The notes beneath the pieces are model-generated. The model worked only from the letters and a program-made list of their open reading frames with translations, was not told the DNA's origin and ran no database searches. Made by a program: the position numbers and the translations under genes. Of a stretch of DNA of 64,000 bases, positions 5,877 to 36,629 are shown piece by piece. The stretch comes from Seleniivibrio sp. (GTDB lineage Bacteria; Chrysiogenota; Deferribacteres; Deferribacterales; Geovibrionaceae), in assembly GCF_021209385.1 (NCBI RefSeq), contig NZ_JAJOIL010000028.1:62001-126000 (forward strand), written 5' to 3'. Within the stretch, counting starts at the first letter, position 1. Each line of letters begins with the position of its first letter.

Positions 5877-6629
5877 TCAGCCCTCCCTGTCAATTCCGAC
5901 CTTAGCCAGAACCCTGTCTGTTGCCGCCTGAAGCTTTGTTCTGTCACCATGCGCCTCCGGCAGACTGTTTGCCATTATGTATGCAAGCCCTTTCATGGTC
6001 AGTGTTCTGACGGGCATTGCCTCTTTTTCCGAGTAATACCAGAAATTTTTATCCGACTTGCTCTCCATCCGCAGGCTCGCCGCGAACACAGGAGTGTCGT
6101 CTTTATTCATTATGGAAAAATTTACTTTAGAAAAATTCGTGCCATATTTTCTGTCGAAAGATTCCTTCGCGTTGAACACGACTATATATTCCGCCTGCTT
6201 GATGGTATCCACAGGAATTCCATATTCTCCCGCCGCAAGAAAGTTGCGTATCTGGGTATGGAGCTTCTCGTTAAACTCGTATGTACCATCCGAATGGGTT
6301 ATTCTGGGCGGAACAACATATATGAACCTGCCGTGATCAAGCCTGCGGGTCATTATATGTGTGTAGTCCTCCGCCTTCTCCTTCGTTTTATCATAAAGGA
6401 GCGACGAAACATTCGTATTTGTCTCAAGAACCACGGCAAAAAGCAACAAACCAGAGCTTGGTTTCATAAGTTCCGTCACCGGTTCTATGATAATATTGTC
6501 TATCTTTCCGGTGACACTTTTGCCCGCCTTTGTGACAGGATTTTCCTTGACCAGATTGACTCCGGCTTCCTTCACAGCGCATCCGCTGAAGAAAACCAAC
6601 GCAAAGAGCATGGGAAATATTTTCTTCAT
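5877..6629 (-). CDS. Lipoprotein of unknown function leading the flagellar rod operon
   Basis: 250 residues with a clear lipobox (FFSGC, Cys about residue 17), so an outer- or inner-membrane lipoprotein. I recognise no family. Residues about 60-110 hold a beta-rich stretch with a RRLDHGRFIYVVPPRI segment; the remainder is mixed alpha/beta and ends KVGIDREG. It is the first gene after the sigma-54-type promoter and is only 3 nt from flgF, so it should be expressed with the rod. Roles in ring assembly or the basal-body envelope are possible but unproven. AGGAG precedes its start. Confidence 0.75.
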   Translation of the reverse strand: MKKIFPMLFALVFFSGCAVKEAGVNLVKENPVTKAGKSVTGKIDNIIIEPVTELMKPSSGLLLFAVVLETNTNVSSLLYDKTKEKAEDYTHIMTRRLDHGRFIYVVPPRITHSDGTYEFNEKLHTQIRNFLAAGEYGIPVDTIKQAEYIVVFNAKESFDRKYGTNFSKVNFSIMNKDDTPVFAASLRMESKSDKNFWYYSEKEAMPVRTLTMKGLAYIMANSLPEAHGDRTKLQAATDRVLAKVGIDREG

Positions 6630-6679: not shown

Positions 6680-6970
6680 CGCAATTTTATCCATCCATGG
6701 AAAAATTGCGCCAACACTCCGGTCGGCAAACCTCCCTCCGTTCACGCAAGCGGGTTTCTTCCATGAAACCTATCACCATCTCGCAAACAGCTTCCTGCTG
6801 TTTCCTCGCAACGCAAGTTTCAGGCAAAGCCTGCCCCTTGCTCACACTACAAATATTTTATTGCACCAAAGCGCAAAAAATATTCTCCGTGAGGTCCATC
6901 CATGGACCTTTGGGGCAAACAAGCCCCCCCCCTCCCTCCGTTCACGCAAGCGGGTTTCATCCATGAGACC
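6680..6970. repeat. Intergenic multi-hairpin array (variable stems, conserved loops), compound copy
   Basis: The 435-base gap between the flagellar lipoprotein gene and the Fur-family gene is filled by successive stem-loops: 6680..6710 (loop ATCCAT), 6753..6770 (loop TTCCAT), 6785..6803 (loop TTCCT), 6821..6833 (CAGGC-AAA-GCCTG), 6852..6884 (AT-rich stem), 6892..6909 (loop ATCCAT), 6912..6927 (GGGGC..GCCCC) and 6953..6970 (loop ATCCAT). A 40-bp block (6731..6770) recurs exactly 200 bp later (6931..6970) with two mismatches, so at least two units are joined. No ORF crossing it looks real. Related arrays lie at 14230, 18382, 32851, 34650 and 36555. Confidence 0.8.
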
Positions 6971-7030
6971 TCAAACTGATAACAAAGAGGAGAAAAGACC
7001 AGATTGCTTCGCCTTATTCCGTTTTTACAC

Positions 7031-14207: not shown

Positions 14208-14535
14208 AGCTGTTGATACAAGATTTTTTTTTGCCAGAGGCTCTGCCTCTCCGGAAATTCTTTAAGAAGTGTATTCGGAGTAATTTGCTCCGAATGCATC
14301 TATTATAATAATAGCCCCGTATGTCAAAGCGTCAAGCCAATGAAGGCAGGTTATTTCCAAAACGGAACCATTATATATACTATGTATTATATACCCGTTA
14401 GAACACTCAACAATCGTTTAGTTCAAAAAAGTATAACGCACCCTTTTTATTTTTATTTCAGTCTTCCTTTCATTGACTATATCTATACGCTGTAGTATCG
14501 TGAAAAGTAATTTTGTCTAAAATGAAGGTGCTTAT
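14208..14535. other. Divergent intergenic region with two hairpins
   Basis: No gene seen. AGAGGC-TCT-GCCTCT (14235..14249) and ATTCGGAG..CTCCGAAT (14271..14293) form two stem-loops like the modular hairpins elsewhere in the window, possibly a truncated copy. The rest is AT-rich and should contain both divergent promoters; I cannot place them confidently. Confidence 0.5.
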
Positions 14536-18381: not shown

Positions 18382-18473
18382 GGCTTCAGGATGAAGCCCG
18401 CGGAGCGTAAGCGGAACGAAGGCTTTTGCCTGAGAGCAGCGGCATCGAAAATTTTCCATTGACGGAAAATTTT
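18382..18473. repeat. Hairpin array inside the tRNA operon
   Basis: Three stem-loops fill the spacer between tRNA-Glu and tRNA-Val: GGCTTC-AGGAT-GAAGCC (18382..18398), AGGC-TTTT-GCCT (18420..18431) and AAAATTTTCC-ATTGAC-GGAAAATTTT (18448..18473). The linker CGCGGAGCGTAAGCGGAACG resembles linkers of the other arrays read on the matching strand. It is necessarily transcribed within the tRNA precursor. I see no flanking direct repeat here. Confidence 0.75.
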
Positions 18474-18487
18474 TGCAAAGTATAATC

Positions 18488-20108: not shown

Positions 20109-20177
20109 TAGACTGCTTCGTCATTTCATTCCTCGCAGAGACGTTAAGGCGTCTTTGCGAGCGAAGCGAAGCAATCT
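20109..20177. repeat. Extragenic palindromic repeat (long imperfect hairpin)
   Basis: An imperfect inverted repeat with outer arms AGACTGCTTCG / CGAAGCAATCT and inner arms CTCGCAGAGACG / CGTCTTTGCGAG. It resembles the GCGAGCGAAGCGAAGCAATCT type of repeat found between genes in many bacteria. Its right end forms part of the crp-family stop codon (TAG, 20178..20176). A truncated relative occurs at 22738..22770. Confidence 0.8.
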
Positions 20178-22737: not shown

Positions 22738-22770
22738 TGAGACTGCCGCGTCGCGGCACTCCTCGCAGAG
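22738..22770. repeat. Truncated copy of the 20109 extragenic palindromic repeat
   Basis: TGAGACTGCCGCGTC..CTCCTCGCAGAGAC matches the left half of the 20109..20177 repeat (AGACTGC..CGTC..TTCCTCGCAGAGAC) with substitutions; an internal TGCCGCG/CGCGGCA hairpin (22744..22758) replaces part of it. Lies between napA and napD. Confidence 0.6.
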
Positions 22771-22776
22771 ACATTC

Positions 22777-29075: not shown

Positions 29076-29189
29076 AGCTTCTTATCTCCCCCTTTGACAA
29101 AGGGGGATTAAGGGGGATTTTCATTGAATTTTAATCAAATCCACCCAACCCTCCTTTATTAAAGGAGGGAGCGGAAGCTAAGCTTATTA
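29076..29189. repeat. C-rich/G-rich double-hairpin element, copy 1
   Basis: CTCCCCCTTTGACAAAGGGGGA (29086..29107) and CCCTCCTTTATTAAAGGAGGG (29149..29169) flank inverted GGGGGATTT / AAATCCACCC segments. AGCTTCTTA (29076..29084) and AGCTTATTA (29181..29189) flank the element as a near-perfect direct repeat; the right copy contains the stop codon of the HAD gene. Same family as 32999..33132 and 36446..36535. Confidence 0.78.
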
Positions 29190-32842: not shown

Positions 32843-32988
32843 TCTCCCATAAATTTCCCATCCATGGGGAAATTTCTGATAACGTTCAGCGAGGCAAAGC
32901 CTCCGCCTCACTCACTCTCCGTTCGCATCACAGGTAAAACCCGCTCTGCTCACTCTGAGAACTTCATCATGAAGTTTTAGTCTCCCAT

Positions 32989-32993: not shown

Positions 32994-34626
<1,633 letters not shown>

Positions 34627-34639
34627 TTACGATTATCGT

Positions 34640-34796
34640 CTAATTAGTAACAAGGCTCATGGATGAGCCTCGCGGTTGTATTTTTTGGCAATTTATTGCT
34701 AAAAAATACATTAGCGTGAGCAAAGTGCAAGCTTTTGCTTGTGCTTTGCGTCACTCCAAAATAACAGGAGGTTATTTTGGAGATAACTAATTAGTA
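34640..34796. repeat. Variable-stem hairpin array between nadE and guaB, flanked by 10-bp direct repeats
   Basis: CTAATTAGTA occurs at 34640..34649 and 34787..34796; the right copy contains the nadE stop codon. Between lie GGCTC-ATGGAT-GAGCC (34653..34668), a long AT-rich stem GTATTTTTT..AAAAAATAC (34677..34708), AAGTGCAAGC-TTTT-GCTTGTGCTT (34720..34743) and CCAAAATAAC-AGGAG-GTTATTTTGG (34756..34780). The linker GCGTGAGCAAAG recurs in other arrays. Confidence 0.82.
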
Positions 34797-36445: not shown

Positions 36446-36535
36446 TATAAGAAAATCCACCCCAACCCTCCTTTTTCAAAGGAGGGAGTAATAATCTCCC
36501 CCTTTATAAAAGGGGGACCAAGGGGGATTTATATT
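36446..36535. repeat. C-rich/G-rich double-hairpin element, copy 3
   Basis: Begins AAAATCCACCCCAA and ends AAGGGGGATTTATA. Two hairpins: CCCTCCTTTTTCAAAGGAGGG (36466..36486) and CTCCCCCTTTATAAAAGGGGG (36497..36517). Flanks AAGAA/TTCTT make the whole element an imperfect inverted repeat. No clear target duplication seen for this copy. Confidence 0.75.
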
Positions 36536-36542
36536 CTTAGCT

Positions 36543-36629
36543 TTCCTGTCTTATGGTACTTACGAAAAAATCCAATCCTGGGATTTTTTCGCCAACGCTT
36601 CAATCGGCAAAGTCTCATTCCTGCCTTAT
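36543..36629. repeat. Short variable-stem hairpin element at the moaC 3' end, flanked by 12-bp direct repeats
   Basis: TTCCTGTCTTAT (36543..36554) and TTCCTGCCTTAT (36618..36629) flank a 63-bp segment containing CGAAAAAATCC-AATCCT-GGATTTTTTCG (36563..36591). Next to it is CGCCAACGCTTCAATCGGCAAA, close to a block at 6709..6730 (CGCCAACACTCCGGTCGGCAAA). The present moaC stop (36617..36615) lies just inside the element; the distal copy preserves what looks like the ancestral end of moaC. Confidence 0.75.

Follow-up and report, generated by a model that had tools for sequence, protein, structure and literature searches.

The stretch of DNA examined here (the window, 64,000 nucleotides) is part of a 2.9-Mb Seleniivibrio draft genome in 42 contigs. 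In the spacer between guaB and guaA, within a tRNA gene cluster, at the 3' end of moaC, in a gene leader and at one further site, it carries copies of a dispersed element whose complete form comprises four hairpins (Table 1; guaB, guaA and moaC are named by Pfam). Genus-mates in the comparison include Seleniivibrio woodruffii bin96 (G004) and the Deferribacteraceae MAGs UBA6799 (G001) and UBA6793 (G002). The initial annotation had joined six loci into one family of hairpin arrays. Five of them, listed at 6680, 18382, 32851, 34650 and 36555, are matched by our covariance model R2 and do form a family, whereas 14230 holds ordinary hairpins with other loops (AGAGGC-TCT-GCCTCT and ATTCGGAG-TAATTTG-CTCCGAAT) that are matched neither by R2 nor by the linker model R1. 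A 40-bp block had been described as repeating exactly 200 bp apart in the array at 6680; the spacing is indeed exactly 200 nt, but the block measures 41 nt and its copies are 95% identical. A scan of the window at Rfam gathering thresholds returned tRNAs only.

Table 1. Copies of the four-hairpin element in the window, with the strand of the R2 match and of the predicted RNA
Feature	Position	Strand	Score	Parts and context
Short element	6680..6802	R2 +, RNA -	R1 57 bits, R2 56 bits	HP1/HP-D 6680-6710; linker block; HP4/HP-A 6753-6770; further small hairpin 6785-6803; minus strand, in leader of gene 5877-6629; orthologous copies L123 and L147, HP1 stems identical
Further mosaic units of the 6680 array	6781..6971	-	R2 31 bits at 6781-6909, R1 34 bits at 6931-6969	Hairpin GGTCC-ATCCAT-GGACC 6893-6908; second copy of the 41-nt block 6931-6971 (direct repeat)
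Short element in tRNA gene cluster	18382..18475	R2 -, RNA +	R2 48 bits	21 nt after tRNA-Glu, ahead of tRNA-Val; orthologous copies L125 and L148
Complete element between guaB and guaA	32848..32976	R2 +, RNA -	R2 100 bits (copy belongs to the R2 training set), R1 weak match	On the RNA strand (-): HP-A 32960-32976; HP-C GAGGC-UUU-GCCUC 32891-32903; HP-D 32848-32878, stopping 9 nt short of the guaA start codon; orthologous copy in G001 (L107)
Divergent element	34653..34781	R2 -, RNA +	R2 40 bits	HP1/HP-D 12-bp stem 34754-34782
Truncated element, HP1/HP-D and HP2/HP-C	36563..36622	R2 +, RNA -	R2 34 bits	11-bp perfect stem; at moaC 3' end (stop codon 36615); orthologous copies L128 and L150

The unit is about 127 nt long, full copies measuring about 124-131 nt, and shorter forms lack HP3. 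On the strand listed by the initial annotation it reads HP1 - AACGCT - HP2 - CGCTCACGCTCCG - HP3 - CTCCGCG - HP4, where HP1 has a stem of 9-14 bp and a loop around TCC, HP2 and HP3 have AAA loops and HP4 has the loop ATCCT. On the reverse strand the order is HP-A (= HP4; loop AGGAN), HP-B (UUU loop), HP-C (= HP2; UUU loop) and HP-D (= HP1; stem of about 12 bp, loop A(N)GGAN). The stems vary yet stay complementary on constant loops, as had been noted: information per column averages 0.66 bit in stems versus 1.11 bit in model-unpaired columns, and reaches up to 2.0 for loop T/C. The shared linker words GCTCACGC (= GCGTGAGC on the opposite strand) and CGGAG are likewise real. In the predicted folds of the reverse strand the "linkers" CGCGGAG, CGGAGCGUGAGCG and GGAGCGUU close upon each other, and HP-B and HP-C carry conserved internal loops, GA/GA and UGA/GAG, with covarying pairs on either side. 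The modelled folds suggest that the linkers pair mutually through these internal loops, possibly with tandem sheared G.A pairing. An intrinsic terminator, that is a G+C-rich hairpin followed by a U-run, was considered and rejected, as HP-D is rich in A+T and, in the copies listed, has no T-run after it on the reverse strand.

Pairing was assessed in two ways. Model R1 consisted of the linker and HP4 only, without structure and with HP1 left out, and a hairpin of 9-14 bp (HP1) lies directly upstream of the R1 match in 84 of 85 copies. Among 70 distinct HP1 sequences, the arms of the 62 stems of at least 11 bp pair at 93.7% of positions, as against a mean of 44.8% (maximum 51.2%) when arms are swapped between copies. 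Model R2 is a covariance model of 127 positions and 30 pairs, derived from 22 Seleniivibrio copies that include one window copy. Because the variable stems were misaligned by MAFFT, RNAalifold missed HP1 on that alignment, and the structure of R2 was therefore set by hand; it omits one HP1 pair. In two alignments made with the covariance model (96 and 98 distinct sequences) double-sided change is seen at each of the 30 pairs, and the covariation score was reached by none of 500 shuffles, with slid controls far lower; such alignments are fitted to the structure, which inflates pairing, whereas the HP1 arm swap is free of this inflation. That stem matches might be no commoner than in shuffled DNA can be dismissed, since covariation lies far above both shuffled and slid controls, and the covariance search finds further copies, at least 26 in the window's genome at E<0.02 with R2. 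The proposal of selection for structure or a templated process is thereby supported. Chance hairpins and ordinary dispersed repeats, the kind present at 14230, account for one locus of six; for the other five they are refuted by the HP1 count, the arm swaps, the covariation and the family-limited distribution, and we give them practically no probability. That the dispersed four-hairpin element is a structured nucleic acid under constraint we regard as very nearly certain.

The RNA is likely to be the reverse strand relative to the initial listing. Outside the loop-adjacent HP1 pairs, A.C mismatches, which are G.U on the reverse strand, outnumber G.T by 148 to 62, and after clustering by element or flank similarity by 82 to 47 (44 groups, p=0.003); since R2 was built on the opposite strand, model bias runs against this result. 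Variation at the partner of the AACG linker mostly keeps reverse-strand pairing, with 93 versus 8 wobbles. The T.G mismatches beside the HP1 loop (46) were set aside, as they have the appearance of a bulge that the model misaligned. Folding energy was not retained as evidence on the strand. In 150 of 151 copies the reverse strand comes out the more stable by about 9 kcal/mol, yet z-scores against dinucleotide shuffles do not differ (-4.0 versus -4.2), and the gap is therefore one of base composition.

Gene context, counted from simple ORF calls, has the same direction. In 98 of 128 genus copies the upstream gene shares the direction of the reverse strand (clustered, 34 versus 10), a co-directional upstream stop codon lies within 40 nt in 36 cases versus 4 (16 versus 1 after de-duplication by clustering), and about 30 copies start within 15 nt of a stop codon; orientation is unbiased for the gene on the opposite side (57 of 126). 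We infer that the element is mostly transcribed with the gene directly upstream, in its 3' UTR or in an intercistronic spacer. The divergent copy in the window departs from this context rule, its predicted RNA being antisense to the genes on either side. A tandem pair of elements in G004 (L180, 1155-1419) separates csrA from a convergent transporter-like gene; on the predicted RNA strand this pair lies downstream of the transporter-like gene, not of csrA.

Each of the 12 genomes of the taxonomic family, which span four genera, has matches to R2, from at least 3 to at least 68 per genome, while none was found among the scored candidates in 39 other genomes of the phylum. Copies stand at orthologous loci between species, with flanks about 75-93% identical; G002 and G004 are a close pair, most of whose elements show little or no difference in surroundings (1.3 kb) that are about 84-95% identical. 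At a locus common to four species (L101, L116, L120, L164) the HP-D stems differ and the GGA loop is kept. L101 and L120 are separated there by three fully compensated pairs with no intermediate, and uncompensated changes between orthologues are also seen (L128/L150, L133/L151). Many near-identical copies in a genome of another genus (G011) show that amplification also occurs, and tandem duplication of the unit is common. The best explanation is an element of about 127 nt that is largely vertically maintained and specific to the Seleniivibrio-containing family of Deferribacterota. Rfam holds no family matching it, and in the literature on repeats in Seleniivibrio or Deferribacteres we found no description of it; it is apparently an undescribed, family-specific, multi-copy structured RNA repeat of gene ends.

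Tandem elements with a period of about 135-143 nt were observed at L124, L129, L146, L157, L158 and L163. At L124, adjacent units differ in their HP1 stems but hardly in their linkers, which looks like the exchange of an entire hairpin. The G011 genome also contains long intergenic clusters (L172, L177, L178) with shorter, oppositely oriented units, resembling BIMEs.

Dispersed repeats of bacteria are usually seen as mobile debris in which the palindromes are conserved. In this element every stem is rewritten with pairing, loops and internal loops kept, which is the signature of RNA-level selection on many copies simultaneously, and such selection on the structure of the element is well supported. 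Complementarity could also arise without selection if template switching in a hairpin copied one arm onto the other, and the scarcity of G.U pairs, which are rarer than in typical RNAs, as well as the compensated differences between L101 and L120 would suit such a process. It is strand-blind and gives no excess of A.C over G.T, it explains neither the constant loops nor the conserved internal loops, and the uncompensated changes between orthologues speak against it. As both the mismatches and the gene context are strand-asymmetric, selection on RNA structure is the better supported; templating in its place is decidedly improbable, and it may contribute alongside selection. We also consider it improbable that the element is non-autonomous mobile DNA of the MITE or REP type, with hairpins read as single-stranded DNA by a transposase and structure kept for mobility. 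Persistence of copies at orthologous loci argues against it, and so does the presence of RAYT (Y1_Tnp, PF01797) in only one of five genus genomes, which is not the window's own; RAYT mobility was rejected for the four genomes without PF01797. Many dispersed copies, near-identical copies in G011, tandem duplications and copies at contig ends would fit mobility, but the flank repeats are tandem duplications of the unit (L146), and stem differences in nearly every copy as well as the strand and gene-end bias would be left unexplained. No shared terminal inverted repeat was noticed.

A REP/BIME-like module that stabilises or processes mRNA 3' ends, its hairpins blocking 3' exonucleases or marking processing sites and its loops recognised by the ribosome, by some protein that is not CsrA or by no reader at all, is conceivable and on the whole unlikely. 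The position right after stop codons and between convergent genes, the long HP-D stem and the BIME-like inverted clusters of G011 speak for it. Against it, a pure stability element needs no constant A(N)GGA or UUU loops and no G.A internal loops, and copies in 5' leaders or between tRNA genes also exist.

Several known systems resemble the element in part. Double-hairpin elements of fungal mitochondria have constant loops on changing stems; the likeness is one of description, and they are organellar and mobile, unlike the element. The sRNAs CsrB/C and RsmX/Y/Z share several hairpins, A(N)GGA loops and variable stems with it, and HP-A often reads CAGGAUG, which we take to resemble the CsrB repeat. 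They are each encoded by one dedicated sRNA gene, whereas the element is dispersed in mRNA ends and has in addition UUU-loop hairpins and G.A internal loops; among the Rfam Csr/Rsm families the best score was 11.6 bits, for RsmV, against a gathering score of 100. REP, BIME and REPIN sequences are dispersed extragenic palindromes, often 3' of genes and clustered. A REP palindrome has 20-40 nt (PMC3733652), in contrast to the 127 nt, four hairpins and stems without sequence conservation of the element, and RAYT, the partner of REP and REPIN, is absent from most of the genus. TwoAYGGAY (RF01731), known from human gut, Clostridiales and Gammaproteobacteria (PMC2864571), has two hairpins with AYGGAY-type GGA loops, as HP-A and HP-D have, and CsrA binding has been proposed for its GGA loops and tandem GAs (PMC4333381). 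Its stem contains tandem G.A, of which the conserved GA/GA and UGA/GAG internal loops of the element may be a counterpart, and it is not known as a multi-copy gene-end repeat. The RF01731 model gave no match in the genome at E<=10 and none for single elements or 20 element loci; we therefore describe the element as possibly CsrA-RNA-like and not as a member of TwoAYGGAY.

The terminal A(N)GGA loops of HP-A and HP-D match the stem-borne hexaloop ANGGAX recognised by CsrA/RsmA (PMC4005645) and the CsrA SELEX consensus RUACARGGAUGU (PMC7652899). In the genus such loops are present in 95 of 126 HP-D and 106 of 123 HP-A hairpins, and the G011 counts are 41 of 43 and 40 of 43, respectively; HP-A, being a pentaloop without the N of ANGGAX, should be a weaker CsrA site. 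One csrA gene is found in each of the five genus genomes, and in G004 the 156-codon ORF directly upstream of it presumably resembles FliW. Judged from these sequence features, docking of CsrA on the element is a serious possibility that falls just short of probable. A CsrA dimer would dock on the two terminal GGA hairpins, and the docked element might tune the stability of its own mRNA, or the copies might collectively titrate CsrA. Selection would keep loops, internal loops and pairing and leave the base identity of the stems free, and the stems would therefore drift by compensatory change. More tentatively, the copies may constitute a distributed CsrA sponge, a family-wide, undescribed RNA class in which two-site docks in 3' UTRs and intercistronic spacers replace CsrB-type sRNAs and stems drift freely since only loops and internal loops are read. 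Campylobacter has CsrA-FliW without CsrB-type sRNAs, and there an mRNA itself titrates CsrA (PMC4894983); a distributed sponge is plausible in that light. Should the GGA loops prove to be CsrA docks, this would be a new arrangement of CsrA control outside the Gammaproteobacteria, where dedicated CsrB-type sponges are mostly missing. The main weaknesses of the CsrA reading are the HP-D loops that read ACGA in 17 of 126 genus copies, and so lack the GGA needed by CsrA, and the 3' location, CsrA sites being better known from 5' regions. The neighbouring genes are general housekeeping genes with no clear CsrA regulon; some are named by Pfam, and the names of several others are our assumption.

Other repeats lie near the elements. 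A separate dispersed repeat, CCCTCCTTTATTAAAGGAGGG / TCCCCCTTTGACAAAGGGGGATTAAGGGGGATTT, occurs in the window at 29084-29171, 33012-33132 and 36461-36535 and also at L004, and is conserved in sequence, unlike the four-hairpin element. The hairpin ACATTTACACTATTTTATGTAAATGT is found at 33057-33086 of the window and at about 1445-1470 of L015, where it lies within an element's first hairpin in the manner of a nested insertion. The repeat AGACTGCTTCGTCATTTCATTCCTCGCAGAGACGTT occupies two intergenic places in the window (20110-20145 and 22740-22775), and its relatives adjoin elements in other genomes (L003, L123).
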